This document shows positions 30,052 to 39,072 of a stretch of 44,600 bases of DNA, in pieces. Below the pieces are notes generated by a model, which saw nothing but the letters and a program-made list of their open reading frames with translations, was not told where the DNA came from and searched no databases. The DNA is taken from contig QZKU01000065.1 in the NCBI GenBank assembly GCA_003598085.1, positions 1 to 44,600 of the forward strand, in the 5' to 3' direction. The stretch comes from Candidatus Abyssobacteria bacterium SURF_5 (GTDB lineage: Bacteria; Abyssobacteria; SURF-5). Numbering within the stretch: the first letter of the stretch is position 1; each line of letters starts with the position of its first letter. A program made the translations under genes and the position numbers.

Positions 30052-31038
30052 TTACTCCTTAAACCTGAATACCGGTCCGAAAATTACATGACTAAGGTAA
30101 AAGAGCGCTGCAAAACCGATGGTGACGAGCAGATGAATCCAGTTAATCGCGATGACATCGGGATGAAAAGAAGGAATCACCAGAACATATTTCTCAAGCA
30201 AGAGGCCGGCAAGAACAAAACTTGATGAAATGAGCGGAATAAATCCGGTCGCTTTGGCGCGGCGTGGCATGAGAATGGTGAACGGAATGACAAACGCCAG
30301 CGCCAGCATGGTTAGCGTCACCGCTCGCCATGGGCTGCGAAAGAAAATGAGATAGACGAATTGCGTCTCTTCCGGAATGTCTCCGTACCAGATCACGATG
30401 TATTGGCTCCACAAAAGGGACATCCAGAACAGAGAAAAGGCAAACAGCAGCTTTGAAATCCTTCGCCTGTCCCCATCCGGTATGGCCGCGAAATAGCCCG
30501 CCACGCACAATCCCGCGAGTCCGAGAAAAAACGCGCTCACCGCGAAATAGGCGCCCAGCAGCGTACTGTACCAGTTGGGCTGCAGAGACATGACCAGATC
30601 AAATGCGAGATAGGTGTAAACAACCATAAAGAGTATTACAAGTGCGACCGCCCACGGAGAGGCTTGAATCGGGTCGGAAGCCTCACTTTGTTTTCCGGTC
30701 TTGTAGAGGAATATCCAACTGAAGAGAGCCAGGAGACTCAATCCCAATAATCCGCGAATCGCCAGAAACGGGATATTCAGATAGGCCGCCTTTTGGGGTA
30801 CCGGGTCAGCAACCCAGGGAAAAATGGAGACGCGCCCCAGCAGAAGGACTGCAAATAGGATGACTACCACCGGCAAAAATGCAGCAAACGAGCGCGCGAT
30901 GCCGACATACGGACGGCCCCACCTCGCATTGGTGAGATTCAAAGAGGCTGCAAAAATGACGCTGCCCTGCGCAAGGCTCGCCCAAAAGAGAAAGTTAACA
31001 AGAAAAGCCTGCCAGAACAGGTTCACATAGTCGCCCAT
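30052..31038 (-). CDS. actF: Alternative complex III subunit ActF
   Basis: 328-residue polytopic membrane protein with about ten helices, of the ActF/ActC-related quinone-side subunit family. It shows the conserved FLVNFLFWASLAQGSVIFAA start, PWAVALVILFMVVYTYLAFDLVMSLQPNWYST-like region (residues about 140-165) and WSQYIVIWYGDIPEET, which are typical of ActF. ATG 31038 lies 4 nt after the actD stop with AGAGG upstream; a TTG at 31065 would overlap actD. Last gene of the complex. In characterised ACIII it helps form the membrane domain, possibly with a proton path. Confidence 0.9.
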   Translation of the reverse strand: MGDYVNLFWQAFLVNFLFWASLAQGSVIFAASLNLTNARWGRPYVGIARSFAAFLPVVVILFAVLLLGRVSIFPWVADPVPQKAAYLNIPFLAIRGLLGLSLLALFSWIFLYKTGKQSEASDPIQASPWAVALVILFMVVYTYLAFDLVMSLQPNWYSTLLGAYFAVSAFFLGLAGLCVAGYFAAIPDGDRRRISKLLFAFSLFWMSLLWSQYIVIWYGDIPEETQFVYLIFFRSPWRAVTLTMLALAFVIPFTILMPRRAKATGFIPLISSSFVLAGLLLEKYVLVIPSFHPDVIAINWIHLLVTIGFAALFYLSHVIFGPVFRFKE

Positions 31039-31042
31039 TGCC

Positions 31043-31561
31043 CTAACCTCTTCCTTCTCCTTCAAGCAGTCTTACGTCAAGTGTCCCCTCGTTTTTCAGT
31101 GCGGAGTGGACTTTCTCGCATTGTGGCGACTCGTGCCGGACCACAAGCGCAAATTCATTCTGCGAGCATCCTGGATGATAGATGCCGCCGATGCGCGGCA
31201 GTCGCGAGGTGAACAGAAATCCTGCAAAAGTGGCCGTGGCCCCGAAAAGGATTGTCAGCTCGAATGCAATGACTACGAAGGCCGACAGGCTGACTATCGG
31301 CTTTCCGCCAACCGGAATCGGCCACGACAGCACGGTGTAAATCTGAAGCCACAGGCCGAATGCGGCGCCCGTGAGGCAGCCGATGAGCGCAAACCAGCGC
31401 ACCTGGCTCGGCCGGCGCGGCACGAGTTCCTCCATCTCGGGCAGTGGAATAGGGCTGCAGATGTCGATTATTTCCATGTTCAATGACTGGGCCGCTTGCA
31501 CGGCGCGTGCGAGTGCTTCTGCCGTTGAATAGATTGCGATGCTTTCACAACGCTCACTCAT
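31043..31561 (-). CDS. actD: Alternative complex III subunit ActD (DUF3341)
   Basis: 172-residue protein with a soluble N-terminal part of about 55 residues, two membrane helices (about 56-76 and 90-115: WFALIGCLTGAAFGLWLQIY and SLSAFVVIAFELTILFGATA), and a C-terminal domain. The block FTSRLPRIGGIYHP followed by FALVVRHE is the hallmark of DUF3341/ActD. It is a structural, cofactor-free subunit of the ACIII membrane arm. Its ATG overlaps the actC stop by 8 bp and its own stop is 4 nt from actF, so the three genes are tightly coupled. Confidence 0.92.
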   Translation of the reverse strand: MSERCESIAIYSTAEALARAVQAAQSLNMEIIDICSPIPLPEMEELVPRRPSQVRWFALIGCLTGAAFGLWLQIYTVLSWPIPVGGKPIVSLSAFVVIAFELTILFGATATFAGFLFTSRLPRIGGIYHPGCSQNEFALVVRHESPQCEKVHSALKNEGTLDVRLLEGEGRG

Positions 31562-32915
31562 GTGTTTCTCCGCCCTCTCTATGCAGTTGGCTCTTCAGCT
31601 CGCTGATGGCGACAGCAGGGAACACCTTCATCAATGAGATAAACAAGAGGAAGAACAGCCCCCAGGTACCCAACATGATGCCCCACTCGATCAACGTCGG
31701 GAAATACAATCCCCAGGCATACGGATTGTAGTCCTCGGAAAGGCTGGTGACGATGATAACGAAGCGCTCGACCCACATCCCGATGACCACGCCGATCGAA
31801 ACGATGTAGACATATCTCAGGTTCATGCGCAGGCGATGGCTGAACAGGGACAGCGGCAAAAGGCAATTGAAGAATACCATGGTCCAGAAGAGGTAACTGT
31901 ATTCGCCGAAAGCGCGATTGAAGTAGGCGTGCTGCTCATACACGTTGCCGCTGTACCATGCGATGAAGGATTCAACGAAATACGAGTACGTCACAATGAG
32001 GCTCATGAAAATGAGGATTTTTGAAAGCATGTCGAAATGGCGATGCGTGATCAGCGACTCGAGCTCATAGAATTTCCTGATCGGCAGCAGCACGATGATG
32101 ATCATCGCCACCCCCGAAAAGATCGCGCCCGCAACAAAATACGGCGCGAAAATTGTGCTGTGCCAGCCGGGGACGACCGAGACGGCAAAATCCCAACTCA
32201 CGACGCTATGCACGGAGATCACGAGCGGAGTTGCCAGCGCCGCCAATAGCAGGTAAGCCATCTCGTAGTGGTGCCACTGCCGGTATCCGCCCCGCCACCC
32301 GAGGGAGAGGATTCCGTAGATCGTCTTCTTGAGACCGGTTGACCGATCACGAACGGTCGCGACATCCGGAAGAAGCCCCAAATAGAAGAACATCATGCTG
32401 ACCAGCATGTAGGTGGTAATTGCGACGACGTCCCACAAGAGCGGGCTCTTGAAGTTCGGCCAGAGCTGCCGGTAATTCGGATACGGCAACAGATAATACG
32501 CGACCCATACACGCCCCAGGTGAATGAGAGGGTAAAGTCCCGCCGTCATGATCGCGATAACGGTCATCCCTTCAGCAATCCGGTTTATGCTCGTCCTCCA
32601 TTTCGCCAGGAACAGGAAAAGGATGGCTGAAATGAGCGTGCCGGAATGGGCGAGACCGACCCAGAAAACAAAATTTGTTATGTAGACGCCCCAGTTGACG
32701 GGGTTGTTGATGCCCGCCACCCCGATAGAAGCCAATATCTGGCGCAGATATGCGAGAAATCCGAGAGCCAGGAATAGGGACATCAGCGCCGCGAAAAGAA
32801 AAAACAGCTTGCTCGGACGCAGCATTCCGCGCAGGACGGCCTCCTCGATTCCAAGAAAGGTGCCGGCGACCGACGGCGGCTGTTTTGTCGGTTGCACGAT
32901 CCGTTCGCTTGTCAT
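31554..32915 (-). CDS. actC: Alternative complex III subunit ActC (NrfD/PsrC family)
   Basis: 453-residue polytopic quinol-oxidising membrane subunit related to NrfD and PsrC, with about ten transmembrane helices. The segment NWGVYITNFVFWVGLAHSGTLISAILFLF near residues 75-103 contains the Gly/His/Ser site typical of ActC. HSVVSWDFAVSVVPGWHSTIFAPYFVAGAIFSG (about residues 220-255) is also characteristic. It forms the site where quinol hands electrons to the ActB iron-sulfur chain. Its ATG overlaps the actB TGA (ATGA), and it overlaps actD by 8 bp. Confidence 0.94.
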   Translation of the reverse strand: MTSERIVQPTKQPPSVAGTFLGIEEAVLRGMLRPSKLFFLFAALMSLFLALGFLAYLRQILASIGVAGINNPVNWGVYITNFVFWVGLAHSGTLISAILFLFLAKWRTSINRIAEGMTVIAIMTAGLYPLIHLGRVWVAYYLLPYPNYRQLWPNFKSPLLWDVVAITTYMLVSMMFFYLGLLPDVATVRDRSTGLKKTIYGILSLGWRGGYRQWHHYEMAYLLLAALATPLVISVHSVVSWDFAVSVVPGWHSTIFAPYFVAGAIFSGVAMIIIVLLPIRKFYELESLITHRHFDMLSKILIFMSLIVTYSYFVESFIAWYSGNVYEQHAYFNRAFGEYSYLFWTMVFFNCLLPLSLFSHRLRMNLRYVYIVSIGVVIGMWVERFVIIVTSLSEDYNPYAWGLYFPTLIEWGIMLGTWGLFFLLFISLMKVFPAVAISELKSQLHREGGETHE

Positions 32916-35818
32916 CGGCCGCTTCCCTCCGTATCAGCGGAAAGAGTACCCTGGCTAACGATCTTTTTCAAATAGGTTATGGACGGCTGTGTGTTCAAGT
33001 GCTCCAAGACAACGTATCCTCGCCGATCGGCGACGTGCTTGGCAATCCAACTATCAGGATCACGAAGATCGCCGAAACGGATAGCGTGCGTGGGACAGCT
33101 CTGGGCGCAGGCGGGAACAATTTCGCCGTCGCGCAACGGGCGGTTTTCGTCCTTTGCGATCTCCTTAAGCTCGCGAATCCGCTGAATGCAGAACGTGCAT
33201 TTTTCCATTGTCCCCCGCGTCCTGACCGAAACAAATGGATTGAATTGCCTCTGAAGAGGTGGAGGATATTTATAGGTGAACCAGTTGAACCGGCGCACCT
33301 TGTACGGACAGTTGTTCGCGCAGTAACGCGTCCCCACACAGCGGTTATATATTTGTACATTGAGTCCCTCGCTGTTATGAACAGATGCGTAGACCGGGCA
33401 GACCGTTTCGCAGGGCGCATGCCCGCAATGCTGGCACAGCATCGGCTGGAAGATGGTCAGCCCTTTGTCCGCGAGCCGCTGGATGCGCAGCCAGGAAAGC
33501 TTCCGTCCTCTGAGACACTGCTCCTTGCCAACGACAAAGACATTGTTTTCCGCCTGGCACGCAACCGCGCACGCTCCACACCCGATGCACAGGTTCAGGT
33601 CGATCACCATCGCCCACTTGTGGATCGGATACGCATATTCCGGGTAGAGCTCGCCGGCTGCGTGCGGCGCCTCCTCCTTATGATTCTCTTGAAGCTCTCC
33701 CGGTTGAGTGAGGACGACCGCCTGCGCGATCTCCCGTTCCCCCTGCTCGAAAGAACCCTGTATCCGTGCGAGCGGCACTCGCTCGATCACTCCGGCGAAT
33801 TCAACCGGCGCCGCCGTCCATGCTAGCGAGCCGGCATATGGATCGATCTCTCCGCCCAAGGCATGGAACGGATTCCCTTTGGGGTATGCATGAAACGGCA
33901 TGTACTCGCCCGCGGCTCCAATAGGGAAAGCGATGACGCCATCATGAGTACCCTCCTGCAGGGCAACCGGCGCCTCGAGCGTTTTGCCGCCAACGCTCAC
34001 ACGCACAATATCGCAAGGTTTGCAGTTCCAGCGTTCCGCCATTGCCGGCGAAATGAGAAGCGGATTATCCCATGCGATCGTGGTAATCGGATCGGGAAGT
34101 TCATTCAACCACGGCTTATCCGTATGCCGCCCATCGCCGTAGCGAACGGTGGCTATCGGGATAAGGATGCTTCCTTCCGATGTCACATCGGGAGTAATGC
34201 CGTTGAGGGTGGCGGCCGCGTCTTCCAACAGCGTCACCGCGCGCTCATCGGCGGGCAACCAGATGCCGCCCTGCTCGAGCGCGGTTTTCCAAAACGCATC
34301 GAAACTCTGATCGGGCGCCGTTTTTTTCCGAACCTCCTGCCATCGAGTCTGAACGAAGTCCACGTAATTGAAAGAGGGCTTGCCCTTACCGCTCAAAGTT
34401 TGTACGAGATCTGCCAACACCTGACCCGCATGCAGGGAATCCGTAAACGGTTGGATGATTGGTTGGCGCACACAATTTATTCCCGTTCTCGGCTCCACGA
34501 GGTCCCAGGTCTCGATCCAGTGAAGGATCGGAAGGATCAGGTCGTAGTCGGAAGAGGACTCTTCAATTACCGTCGCCAGCTTTATCTTGAGGGGTACATT
34601 GGCCAAAGCCGTTCGCAATCGGTCGGGGTCGGCAAACGCGAATTCCAGGCTCGTATCATGGACGATAAGGGCGCCAACTTCGCCCTTCTCCATTTCCTCA
34701 ACCGTTTTCAGCATGTCCCGGTATGAACCGACCGGAGAATGTTCATATCGATTAAAGGAAACGGTTTTCCCATAATTTCCGGCGGCATAGTTTATGAGAT
34801 TCACGAGTACCTGCAGTGCAGTTGCGTGAGTCGTTCGCGAGGTCGGGCCGCCGGCGAGCACGAGGCTGGGTTTTCGAGAACGTAATAGAACAGCGACGTT
34901 TCGAATTGTCTTCGCTGGGAGCCCGGTCGCTTTGGAGGCTTTCTCCACGGAGAAAGGCTCCAGAGCATCACGCCACTTCTGCAGTTCCGGGCGTTCGGTA
35001 ATGGCATCGGATATTACTTCTGCCGCAATCGCGCCGACAAGCGCCAAATCGGTTCCCGGAGGAATGGAAAAACGTTCGTCTGCGTTAGCGCCGGTCAATG
35101 ACCAGTGCGATTCAAATTGGATGAATCTGCTCTTTGAAGGATCAGTCACGCTGCGAGTTGCCGCGAATCCATGCGCACAACTGACGGGCGAAAGCCACGT
35201 CTCCAGAAAATCGGCGCCAAACGAGAGAATGAGACGGGCGTGTTCAAACTGATAAATCGGAATGCCTTTGATTCCGAAAGAAAGGTTATTCGCGGCGGAA
35301 ACGAAAGGATATTCGAGCGCTTCAAATATCAAGTGCTCGAGTTCCGGCGCATCCGATGTCAAGTCTTGAAGCAGAGTCTGCATCGCGCCCGTCACGTGCC
35401 TGCCGACGATGACGATCTTGCCCTCTTTCGGTGAAGTCCCTGCAACTTCCAGTGCCGCCTGCCAGGTGAGAGCCTCGAGTTCGCCCGATTCGGTCCTGCG
35501 CAGAGGTGATTGCACCCTTCGCGGGCTGTATAAGCCTTGCAACGCTGACTGCCCGCGTGCGCACAGGCCTCCATGATTGACGGGATGCTGCGCGTTCCCT
35601 TCGATTTTCGTGGCGTTCGAATTTATGAGTCGGACCCGCACTCCGCATCCCGCGGGACATTCATTGCAGGTTGAGCTGCGCCAGTACGAGACCCCGGGAA
35701 TCAGTTCTTCCACCGGTATGAGATGCTTGAGCAGGAGCGCGGCTCCTGACCGGCCGGTCGGAACGACTGTTGCCGCGCCGGCAAGGGCCGTAGCTTTCAG
35801 AAATTCCCTTCGGTTCAT
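32912..35818 (-). CDS. actB: Alternative complex III subunit ActB (molybdopterin-oxidoreductase-like plus Fe-S domains)
   Basis: 968-residue exported iron-sulfur subunit. It starts with a Tat signal (NRREFLKATALAGAAT). The B1 domain (to about 690) has the fold of a molybdopterin oxidoreductase and the ActB block GADFLETWLSPV. It also carries C51-x2-C54-x3-C58-x27-C86, a four-cysteine cluster site that characterised ActB proteins do not use. The B2 domain (about 735-920) is ferredoxin-like, with CIGCGACAVACQ, CQHCGHAPCETVCP, CVGTRYCANNCPYKVRRF, CTFCIQRI and CAQSCPTHAI, holding a chain of four clusters. It carries electrons from ActC to ActA. ATG 35818; its TGA overlaps actC. Polysulfide-reductase-like complexes are the main alternative, but the neighbours fit ACIII. 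Confidence 0.92.
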   Translation of the reverse strand: MNRREFLKATALAGAATVVPTGRSGAALLLKHLIPVEELIPGVSYWRSSTCNECPAGCGVRVRLINSNATKIEGNAQHPVNHGGLCARGQSALQGLYSPRRVQSPLRRTESGELEALTWQAALEVAGTSPKEGKIVIVGRHVTGAMQTLLQDLTSDAPELEHLIFEALEYPFVSAANNLSFGIKGIPIYQFEHARLILSFGADFLETWLSPVSCAHGFAATRSVTDPSKSRFIQFESHWSLTGANADERFSIPPGTDLALVGAIAAEVISDAITERPELQKWRDALEPFSVEKASKATGLPAKTIRNVAVLLRSRKPSLVLAGGPTSRTTHATALQVLVNLINYAAGNYGKTVSFNRYEHSPVGSYRDMLKTVEEMEKGEVGALIVHDTSLEFAFADPDRLRTALANVPLKIKLATVIEESSSDYDLILPILHWIETWDLVEPRTGINCVRQPIIQPFTDSLHAGQVLADLVQTLSGKGKPSFNYVDFVQTRWQEVRKKTAPDQSFDAFWKTALEQGGIWLPADERAVTLLEDAAATLNGITPDVTSEGSILIPIATVRYGDGRHTDKPWLNELPDPITTIAWDNPLLISPAMAERWNCKPCDIVRVSVGGKTLEAPVALQEGTHDGVIAFPIGAAGEYMPFHAYPKGNPFHALGGEIDPYAGSLAWTAAPVEFAGVIERVPLARIQGSFEQGEREIAQAVVLTQPGELQENHKEEAPHAAGELYPEYAYPIHKWAMVIDLNLCIGCGACAVACQAENNVFVVGKEQCLRGRKLSWLRIQRLADKGLTIFQPMLCQHCGHAPCETVCPVYASVHNSEGLNVQIYNRCVGTRYCANNCPYKVRRFNWFTYKYPPPLQRQFNPFVSVRTRGTMEKCTFCIQRIRELKEIAKDENRPLRDGEIVPACAQSCPTHAIRFGDLRDPDSWIAKHVADRRGYVVLEHLNTQPSITYLKKIVSQGTLSADTEGSGR

Positions 35819-35836
35819 CGTTTCGTCACCCTGTTT

Positions 35837-36379
35837 CTATTGATGACAGGTGTTGCATTCGATGGGCGCGCCTCTGCGCCGGTGACAATTCACGCACCAG
35901 CCCATCCCCATGTCGGAAACCTTCTGTACCGTGCTCATCAGTTCCACCGCCCCGTGACACTCCTGGCACCTGACTCCGGAAAGTACGTGGCGCTTATGCG
36001 AGAAGTAGACCCAATCCTGAAAATCGTAGATGCGCACCCAATCAATTGGTTCGCCTGTCTGATGGAATGCGGTGAGCTTGATGATCTCAGGCCGATCGGT
36101 TGCGACCGATTCGTGGCATTCCATGCACAATGCCGTGTTCGGAATACCGGCGTGAATCGATTTATCGGCATATCGATGACAATCGCCGCACTCCATTCCA
36201 ACGCGCTGCACGTGCACGTGATGCGGGAACTCGATGGGTTGTTCCGGATGCAGACTCGGCCGCCGGATCGCGAGTCCGAACAACAGGACCAGTGCCGCCA
36301 CAGCACCGAACCATCCCATGATGAGAAGAGCGAAGATATGGAAACTCTTCACGTCTTTCAAACGGTCGATCAGTCGCAA
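35837..36379 (-). CDS. actA: Alternative complex III subunit ActA, pentaheme cytochrome c
   Basis: 180-residue membrane-anchored cytochrome with an N-terminal helix (about residues 13-35, FHIFALLIMGWFGAVAALVL). Five CxxCH heme-binding motifs follow: CGDCH, CMECH, CQECH, CVNCH and CNTCH, the last three residues from the end. Five hemes is the count known for ActA of Rhodothermus and Flavobacterium ACIII. It takes electrons from ActB and passes them to a cytochrome c or oxidase. TTG 36379 is used because AAGGA lies upstream and an in-frame TAA stops any earlier reading; the ATG nearby is in another frame. It stands between the two CydA-like genes and actB. Confidence 0.94.
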   Translation of the reverse strand: MRLIDRLKDVKSFHIFALLIMGWFGAVAALVLLFGLAIRRPSLHPEQPIEFPHHVHVQRVGMECGDCHRYADKSIHAGIPNTALCMECHESVATDRPEIIKLTAFHQTGEPIDWVRIYDFQDWVYFSHKRHVLSGVRCQECHGAVELMSTVQKVSDMGMGWCVNCHRRRGAPIECNTCHQ

Positions 36380-36421
36380 AAAGGACCATCCTTATCTCGG
36401 TGCTCATTCATGACGTTCAAA

Positions 36422-37768
36422 TTAGCGGGGCGTCTGTCCCGGCTGTTGCGCCTGCTGGGATTCATCCGTCTCTTGCCCCTGTTTCCACTCTTCATTCAGG
36501 ACATACTCCGTAATCGCTTCGGTCTGCTCTTGCGTAACAGGCAATTTGGGCATTCGCGGCAGTTCCGGGTTCACCTTCACCGGGTTCAGAACGAATTGCG
36601 ACATTTCGTCCGGGTTCCCTTTATATTTCTCAACCATGTAGGTCAGCGGCGGGCCTACCGTGACCTGTTCCTGCGAGTGGCAGCTTGCGCAGAATCGATT
36701 AAACAGAGCTTGTCCGCTCGGCGCTCTGGCCGCTGCGCCTTCCTCTTCCGGCGGGGTGTATGTCTCAAGGAACTCCTCGACCGACGCGAAATAGAGCTCC
36801 GTATTCTGTTTCGCAATCTGATCCGGCCCGCGCAACAGGTTCAAGCGGACCGTGTCCCGAATGAAGCTCATCACAACGGCGACCGAGCCGATCGCAACCA
36901 GCGCAATCGCCATTTTCTTAACGGAGAATTCTTGAATTGCCGAAATCACGGCGACGGCGCCCACGGTCACGAGAGCAATCCCCACAAGCACGAGGATCAG
37001 GAGGGACGTGGAATAAAAACCGCGCGGCATCGTAAACAGATTCAACGGACCAAATACCCCTTGCAGGAGCGTCGCGATGAGAGCCCATCGCAGGCCGAGG
37101 TTGCGCGCGCGGGGATAGAAGGGATCGTCCGACTTTCGCCCGACGTACCAGAAATATGCGGCGGTGAAGAAACCGATGTTCGCAAAATCGGCCACGAAAA
37201 AATGCAGATAGCGCGGTAGTACGTTCGGCAGCAGCAGCGACCGAAAGAATCCCGTATACTCGTGCCATTGGAACGGCAGCAGCATCAGGTTGATGTTGGC
37301 CAGAAAGATCAGCGGAACAAATGTGAAGATGCCTGCGGCGGCGGCGCCGATACAGATGTGAATGATCGGGCGCCTCTTGCTCAAATCGTCCCAGGTGTAC
37401 TTGTACGCGTACAGGAGAAGGAAGGCGAGGATCACCAGCCACACGATGGAAAGGAAATAGGGGTAGGTCAGTTGGATGACCGAGTACCAGTAAATGGTGA
37501 AGATCAGGCTGATCACCAGCAGCGGAGCGACTCCGATGACAACCGCCATGCTTTTGTTTATGGTGACCGTGTCGAGTATCTCCTTCGCGAAGCGCAGCGA
37601 GAACTGATCTTTGAATCCAAGAATTCGATAGATGACACTGAAATACGTGCCGCCGACCATCAGCCCGACAAAAAATATGTGCAGAATGAAGGTCAGTACC
37701 AGCAGCACGCGCAGAAAAGTCGGCCCGCCGGGCAAATCCAACGGTATCTCTATCGGGATGTTGGTCAT
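36422..37768 (-). CDS. CydA-like membrane protein with C-terminal cytochrome c domain (second of a pair)
   Basis: 448-residue protein with about nine membrane helices and a C-terminal class I cytochrome c domain (about 345-435) with heme motif CASCH (C360, C363, H364) and a likely Met ligand in PRMPKLP. The membrane part resembles subunit I of the cytochrome bd superfamily: H30 in FILHIFFVGLMVGG aligns with the b595 ligand His19 of E. coli CydA, and H189 in LPRYLHFFVADF aligns with b558 ligand His186. The Glu pair near E. coli 99/107 is absent. Its ATG overlaps the stop of the sister gene (ATGA), so both are made together. Predicted partner of the upstream CydA-like protein in a bd-like complex fed by ACIII; function inferred, not shown. 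Confidence 0.7.
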   Translation of the reverse strand: MTNIPIEIPLDLPGGPTFLRVLLVLTFILHIFFVGLMVGGTYFSVIYRILGFKDQFSLRFAKEILDTVTINKSMAVVIGVAPLLVISLIFTIYWYSVIQLTYPYFLSIVWLVILAFLLLYAYKYTWDDLSKRRPIIHICIGAAAAGIFTFVPLIFLANINLMLLPFQWHEYTGFFRSLLLPNVLPRYLHFFVADFANIGFFTAAYFWYVGRKSDDPFYPRARNLGLRWALIATLLQGVFGPLNLFTMPRGFYSTSLLILVLVGIALVTVGAVAVISAIQEFSVKKMAIALVAIGSVAVVMSFIRDTVRLNLLRGPDQIAKQNTELYFASVEEFLETYTPPEEEGAAARAPSGQALFNRFCASCHSQEQVTVGPPLTYMVEKYKGNPDEMSQFVLNPVKVNPELPRMPKLPVTQEQTEAITEYVLNEEWKQGQETDESQQAQQPGQTPR

Positions 37769-39072
37769 CCGCCGCCTATCCCTTCGGCCAAAAATTCGGC
37801 CAACGCCTCCTTCTCGTCCTGCGTTCCGATGAACGGAGGCATGTACGGGTACGTGAACTGCATATTGTCAAGGAATTGAATGGCCGCTTCTTTAGTGCCG
37901 ATGATGGGGCCCTTATTGAAGATGCCGTTCATTCCGCGATAGGTGTGGCAAACGGAACATTCGATTATAAAAACCGCATGCCCTTTGGACGCCGGCGCTC
38001 CTCTGGGACCGGCTTGCTTTTGGGCCCACGTGTAATACTTCAAGACCCCCGTGCTCGAGAGATACGGCGCCTCACGCTTCCGGATGCCGTTGCTGTACAT
38101 GTACTCCTCAATGACATATGGTTTTCGCGAGAATTCGCGCACGCGTTCGAATTGGGCTGTCCCAATGGTCAGCAGGATGAAAGGGGCAACCGACAAGACG
38201 CCATAGCTGCGCCGCGTCGCGAACAGAATCAGGCCGGTCAGGAAGAGGAACCCTGCCACGAAAAGGAAAAATATCTGGCTGAAGGAAGCGTATTGCGTGA
38301 GGCGCAGCGTCATCAGGGCCACCGGCATGAATTGCGACGCGCGTTCGGGCAGCACCTGATAGTAGGCGAACGTGGCGAAGAGGTAAACCGGCGTTACGAA
38401 CAGCAGGTACCTCCCGCAAAACCGCAGAAACTCGCCGCGAATGTCCCGGAATCTGTGTCGCATGAACGAAAAAATGAGCAGGTTGAACGCGCATGCCAGC
38501 ATCGCCGCCAGCGCCATCCGGCTGAATGACTGCGGGAGATATGTCACGTTGAAGAAAGCAGGCCAGAACGAGCGCGTCTCCAGCCATTTCCCCGGCGTCA
38601 TCTGGAAACCTAATATTCCAACGATCGCAAACAGCGTCATCAATGATACGAGAATATAGGCCACACCGACGCGCAGGTGCTTTTCCGGCTTCATCACGCG
38701 CCACGTCAGATAATATATCGATACCAGCGACAGTTCCGCTACAAAAACGCCCCACTCGATAAACCAGACCCAGAAGAACAGGCGCAGAAGCGAGCCGATG
38801 CCGACCGGCGAAAAAATCTGCGTGCTGAACCAGATGCCGACTCCCGTGAGGGCGCCCACGGCCGTTGTCAAAATGAAAAACCAGCGCGCCATGTGGTACG
38901 CAGCTTCGTTCAACATCTGGTTCTTTTCGCGGATGGATTTGTATTCGAGTAAAACGATGAAAAGAGAGCCGCCCACCGCCATTCCATGGCTGACGAGGAC
39001 GTGTACGATGCCGATTATCGCGATCACCATCCGGTCGCCCAGAACGGGAAACAAAACGGCGGGGAAATTCAT
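37765..39072 (-). CDS. CydA-like membrane protein with C-terminal cytochrome c domain (first of a pair)
   Basis: 435-residue protein, first gene of the operon, with about nine membrane helices and a C-terminal monoheme domain (CSVCH: C372, C375, H376; possible Met ligand in YPYMPPF). The membrane part aligns with CydA: H24 in IVHVLVSHGMAVGG matches heme b595 ligand His19; E106 and E113 in WFIEWGVFVAELS match the Glu107 region; QMTPGKW and FFNVTYLPQSF match CydA wording. At the position of b558 ligand His186 it has Arg (SFSRMALAA). The quinol-binding loop of CydA is not recognisable, which fits electron supply by cytochrome c. GAGGA stands before ATG 39072, and a TATAAT (39091-39096 on the minus strand) with a weak -35 is upstream. 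Confidence 0.7.
   Translation of the reverse strand: MNFPAVLFPVLGDRMVIAIIGIVHVLVSHGMAVGGSLFIVLLEYKSIREKNQMLNEAAYHMARWFFILTTAVGALTGVGIWFSTQIFSPVGIGSLLRLFFWVWFIEWGVFVAELSLVSIYYLTWRVMKPEKHLRVGVAYILVSLMTLFAIVGILGFQMTPGKWLETRSFWPAFFNVTYLPQSFSRMALAAMLACAFNLLIFSFMRHRFRDIRGEFLRFCGRYLLFVTPVYLFATFAYYQVLPERASQFMPVALMTLRLTQYASFSQIFFLFVAGFLFLTGLILFATRRSYGVLSVAPFILLTIGTAQFERVREFSRKPYVIEEYMYSNGIRKREAPYLSSTGVLKYYTWAQKQAGPRGAPASKGHAVFIIECSVCHTYRGMNGIFNKGPIIGTKEAAIQFLDNMQFTYPYMPPFIGTQDEKEALAEFLAEGIGGG

Follow-up and report, generated by a model that had tools for sequence, protein, structure and literature searches.

An ACIII operon without ActE that carries a pair of cytochrome c-bearing, bd-like membrane proteins in Candidatus Abyssobacteria

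The window analyzed here, a stretch of 44,600 nucleotides, contains seven minus-strand genes transcribed in the order g1-g2-actA-actB-actC-actD-actF. An initial annotation had described them as one tightly packed unit, and all seven ORFs were indeed found where it had placed them, separated by intergenic distances of -4, 42, 18, -4, -8 and -23 bp. The genes and their products are as follows:

g1, 37765..39072, minus strand: CydA-fold membrane protein with a C-terminal monoheme cytochrome c; proposed oxygen-reducing subunit
g2, 36422..37768, minus strand: CydA-prime-like membrane protein with a C-terminal monoheme cytochrome c; proposed ActE substitute leading from ActA to g1
actA, 35837..36379, minus strand: pentaheme cytochrome c of ACIII with five CxxCH motifs; match to 8k9e chain A, E=1.3e-38
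actB, 32912..35818, minus strand: fused B1-B2 iron-sulfur subunit; match to 6lod chain B, E=8e-120
actC, 31554..32915, minus strand: NrfD-like membrane subunit; match to 6f0k chain C, E=2.7e-133
actD, 31043..31561, minus strand: match to Pfam PF11821 (ActD), E=2e-40
actF, 30052..31065, minus strand: second NrfD-like membrane subunit of 337 aa, start codon uncertain; match to 6f0k chain F, E=8e-27

To judge by their sequences, the five act genes encode an alternative complex III (ACIII) without ActE. The multiheme ActA, the iron-sulfur ActB and the NrfD-like ActC, the latter being the site of quinol oxidation in ACIII, are all present, ActD and ActF are there too, and the best PDB matches of ActA, ActB, ActC and ActF are ACIII structures (6lod, 6f0k, 8k9e and 6btm). 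ActB bears a Tat signal and a Molybdop_Fe4S4 domain (Pfam). The N-terminus of its B1 part (window 35429-35701) shows a CxxCxxxC...C iron-sulfur motif of the kind that catalytic molybdopterin enzymes typically have, and this region resembles those enzymes more closely than it does the solved ACIII chains; the motif is shared by the ActB of a cluster from another genome (L146). Membership in Qrc, a complex that draws electrons from periplasmic cytochrome c to reduce quinone, was considered and rejected because the NCBIfam scores fell under the cut-off and ActD, ActF and the ACIII structures fit instead. Besides ActA, a single CxxCH motif occurs in g1 and another in g2; beyond these three, no plausible cytochrome c ORF was found in the window. 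The absence of the monoheme ActE, already remarked upon in the initial annotation, was borne out, as no ActE-like ORF exists in the operon or in the window. ActE is dispensable and several ACIII clusters do without it (PMC8552683), which makes it a variable and not a defining subunit.

The two genes at the head of the operon had been annotated as CydA-like. Profiles and folds place both products in the bd superfamily, an identity that Pfam alone does not give: g1 by itself has no match to the Pfam CydA model, and g2 matches PF01654 with E=2.4e-4, under the cut-off, this being the only PF01654 match in the genome. A profile of 31 g1 relatives aligned with Geobacillus CydA (5doq) at E=1.1e-12, and the nine best PDB matches of the g1 AlphaFold model (mean pLDDT 83) were all CydA (Foldseek, TM 0.5-0.6). 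The profile alignment of g2 with CydA gave E=2.6e-8 and the top 15 Foldseek PDB matches of its model (mean pLDDT 90) were all bd-oxidase subunits. Eight transmembrane helices are predicted in g1 as well as in g2, and together with the positive inner loops they would place both cytochrome c domains in the periplasm.

The two proteins differ in the residues of the oxygen site. Residues H24, E106, E113, E313 and R316 of g1 correspond to H19, E99, E107, E445 and R448 of E. coli (numbering verified), the pairings E313/E445 and R316/R448 being read from a weak second alignment stretch and the RKPY/RQPW motif; all five are fully or almost fully conserved. The ligands of both oxygen-site hemes (E. coli H19, E99, E107 and E445) are retained in g1; H24, E106 and E113 are conserved in 31 of 31 relatives and E313 in 30 of them. 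No histidine stands at the g1 position equivalent to the heme b558 histidine (E. coli H186), and an invariant arginine, R185, lies beside it. The region of the quinol-binding Q-loop of canonical quinol-oxidising bd enzymes (qOR) aligned unreliably. In g2, the counterparts of E. coli H19 and H186 are H30 and H189, both of them kept, while no conserved glutamate occurs at the E99 and E107 positions, so g2 looks like a partner of the CydA-prime type. Since the ligands of the two-heme site are found in g1 and the glutamates are absent from g2, g1 appears to be the subunit that reduces oxygen and is probably the oxidase.

The earlier remark that no heme-copper oxidase lies nearby extends to the whole genome (98.5% complete), where no PF00115 match was found. 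A search for dissimilatory sulfite reductase gave no dsrA match above the cut-off. Candidatus Abyssubacteria have been described as largely anaerobic, a lineage of anoxic fluids with nitrate reduction genes, and the describers of SURF_17 reported oxidative phosphorylation genes but did not find cytochrome c oxidase (PMC6121073).

All three genera sampled from the window's family carry the whole operon. Its carriers nearest the window are Candidatus Abyssobacteria SURF_17 (L014, with the same proteins as G002) and a MAG from groundwater that is labelled Poribacteria (L015, G001). The gene order is the same in these two other genera and their g1 and g2 are 57-63% identical to those of the window, so the arrangement is not due to chance. 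An aspartase-family gene comes after the operon in both SURF_17 and the window. The groundwater MAG also carries a canonical CydA, and the operon therefore need not be the main oxidase.

As had been supposed in the initial annotation, then, both proteins belong to the bd superfamily and the pair does co-occur with act genes, but this co-occurrence is exceptional. Among the 80 nearest g1 loci, only 3 have act genes. In a sample of 386 genomes, 43 had a g1-like match and 112 had ActD; by the listed coordinates, both lay within 10 kb on one contig in 3 of the 43, all from the window's family. ActD was found in 15 of 35 genomes with a strong g1 match and in 97 of the 351 others, a difference that is not significant (Fisher p=0.077). 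The other nearest g1-g2 loci, from Bacteroidota, Bacillota, Methylococcaceae, Zixibacteria and others, are nearly all without act genes, and the window g1 shares 33-43% identity with most g1 proteins of the 80 loci. Nearly half of the aligned g2 relatives are without cytochrome c. Given that most relatives of the pair have no adjacent act genes, the g1-g2 pair does not need ACIII. On an Acidobacteriota contig (L038), actA-B-C-D-F is followed by a monoheme cytochrome resembling ActE and then by g1-g2; supported branches of the g1 tree separate this locus from the trio formed by the window and the two other genera, which indicates either two or more origins of the union with ACIII or its repeated loss.

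The second protein of the pair has a distribution of its own. A g2 profile search of the 386-genome sample, followed by inspection of the loci, revealed nine more ACIII clusters, spread over six families (f171, f73, f74, f92, f68 and f43), in which a g2-like cytochrome c protein adjoins actA, bringing to 12 the clusters with such a gene beside actA and to seven the families, that of the window included. Neither an ActE-like ORF nor g1 was found in the nine clusters, some of which end at contig ends (L172/L173, L174 and L175/L176); heme-copper oxidase genes are present as well in two of the nine, L146/L161 and L171. A merely shared cytochrome c domain was ruled out as the source of these matches because the membrane part alone matches with E values from 1e-30 to 2e-4, and no other ORF of the act loci with a g2-like gene matches this part. 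The CxxCH motif is kept in all nine proteins, the equivalent of H189 is lost in all nine and that of H30 in six. In the g2 trees, which are unrooted and have some long branches, the window trio and the nine g2-like proteins fall on one side of a branch and the g1-paired proteins on the opposite side, with support of 96/91 for the membrane half and 96/96 for the cytochrome half. The ActC tree groups the window trio with six of eight g2-bearing clusters (87/90) and does not reject a single group of all of them (p-AU 0.25), so that it neither shows nor rejects one origin of g2-bearing ACIII.

Because g2-like genes stand beside actA in ACIII clusters that have neither ActE nor g1, g2 probably replaces ActE as the electron exit. 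The initial annotation had the pair replace both ActE and the usual oxidase. These two replacements are supported as separate roles, of g2 for ActE and of g1 for the oxidase, since g2-like proteins accompany ActE-less ACIII even without g1 or with a heme-copper oxidase, and the residues of the oxygen site are retained in g1 alone. We tentatively propose, as a possibility that falls somewhat short of probable, that a bd-oxidase subunit turned into an ACIII subunit, with g2 replacing ActE in at least seven families and the window lineage representing an intermediate with g1 still attached. In six families the b558 histidine would then be gone from g2, as would mostly the H30 ligand, and g2 would work there without its former oxidase partner.

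Concerning the operon as a whole, we consider it moderately probable that it encodes a quinol:oxygen oxidoreductase composed of an ActE-less ACIII and the cytochrome c-bearing bd-like pair, with the path ActC-ActB-ActA-g2-g1. Quinol would be oxidised at ActC, and the electrons would pass through the iron-sulfur clusters of ActB to the five hemes of ActA, leave them through the cytochrome c of g2, standing in for ActE, and proceed to the cytochrome c of g1, where oxygen would be reduced at a two-heme site without heme b558. We infer the direction of electron flow, oxygen as the acceptor, the physical complex and the direct transfer from g2 to g1. The ACIII of Flavobacterium johnsoniae passes electrons without ActE, and a sixth heme in its ActA may make ActE unnecessary (PMC8552683). 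Unlike it, the ActA of the window has no sixth-heme domain, and a further c heme is therefore likely to be required.

Three other accounts of the operon were weighed against this path. The bd-like pair could act on its own as a cytochrome c oxidase supplied by soluble cytochromes, with ACIII feeding other acceptors and the shared operon reflecting co-regulation instead of a supercomplex or a dedicated route for electrons. Most g1-g2 pairs do stand alone and ACIII can feed soluble carriers (PMC8552683); we nevertheless hold this unlikely, as order and adjacency are kept across the three genera, g2 lies beside actA in the 12 clusters of seven families, in operons without ActE, and the window g2 clusters with the ACIII-linked g2 in the trees. 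A pair that reduces nitric oxide, or that mainly detoxifies oxygen or NO in an anaerobe with ACIII as the electron source, would suit a lineage of anoxic fluids with nitrate reduction genes (PMC6121073) and a genome where no PF00115 match, and hence no NorB, was found. However, the literature searched gave no member of the bd superfamily whose chief role is NO reduction, and the retention of the bd oxygen-site ligands in g1 also makes such a function quite improbable.

Reversed flow, in which the complex would reduce quinone from periplasmic cytochrome c in a Qrc-like manner with g1 and g2 as electron-entry subunits, finds an echo in the best NCBIfam matches of ActA and ActB, which are QrcA, QrcB and QrcC, all under the cut-off. 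Yet ActD, ActF and the fused ActB are ACIII traits, the PDB matches are to ACIII and g1 has a full oxygen site, so we regard this direction as very improbable.

The initial annotation saw the novelty of the locus in its supercomplex-like arrangement, but ACIII beside bd-like proteins has been published for Nitrospirota and the kind of arrangement is thus already known. In Nitrospirales, ACIII is directly followed by the cyt. bd-like CydAA' (OR-N5) (PMC12342949), and the terminal oxidase clusters TO_3 and TO_4 of Candidatus Manganitrophus contain bd-like proteins and complex III or ACIII-like parts (PMC9040806). As in Nitrospirales, a pair of bd-like proteins adjoins the ACIII genes in the window; compared by published description, however, the Nitrospirales clusters have a split actB and an actE, are missing ActF/G and carry the pair downstream, whereas in the window ActB is fused, ActF is present, ActE is absent and the pair lies upstream with cytochrome c on both members. 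The likeness to Manganitrophus, also drawn by description, lies in the joining of bd-like proteins with ACIII-like components. The ACIII-aa3/caa3 supercomplexes of F. johnsoniae and Rhodothermus marinus (PMC8552683) likewise unite a quinol-oxidising ACIII with an oxygen reductase, as is proposed for the window, but they have a heme-copper oxidase and ActE and the window has neither. Clusters of ACIII without ActE are known as well, and a substitute monoheme protein has been suspected in Pelobacter (PMC8552683). The new element is g2: in a search lacking most subscription journals, no paper was found on a CydA-fold cytochrome c protein as an ActE-replacing subunit. An ACIII plus bd pair of the Nitrospirales type was also sought in two clusters with split actB (L141 and L142, in G207 and G337), where no bd-like gene occurs; what these clusters do contain is a diheme cytochrome together with an ActE-like monoheme, and no ActF lies beside them.

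The operon is a concrete oxygen-reducing candidate in a deep-subsurface lineage without a reported cytochrome c oxidase, and in SURF_17 it is a candidate for the enzyme that its describers did not find (PMC6121073). It suggests a compact respiratory machine consuming oxygen and a bd-type membrane protein recruited as an electron-exit subunit, and it makes testable how electrons leave ActA in an ACIII without ActE.

The stand-alone pairs of Bacteroidota, Bacillota, Methylococcaceae and other groups consist of the same two proteins as the window but have no act genes adjoining. Their recurrent neighbours (L047, L063, L087 and others) resemble AraC-type, Sco-type and two-component genes, which suggests regulated oxidase or stress roles for these pairs. 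On the Methylosinus plasmid pMSC49c (L013), g1-g2 lie beside a methanobactin cluster, together with two-component genes and a small cytochrome c. Pairs are also found on plasmids of Thermus thermophilus (L012) and Agrobacterium (L011) and, given this presence on plasmids of distant bacteria, the g1-g2 pair may be mobile.
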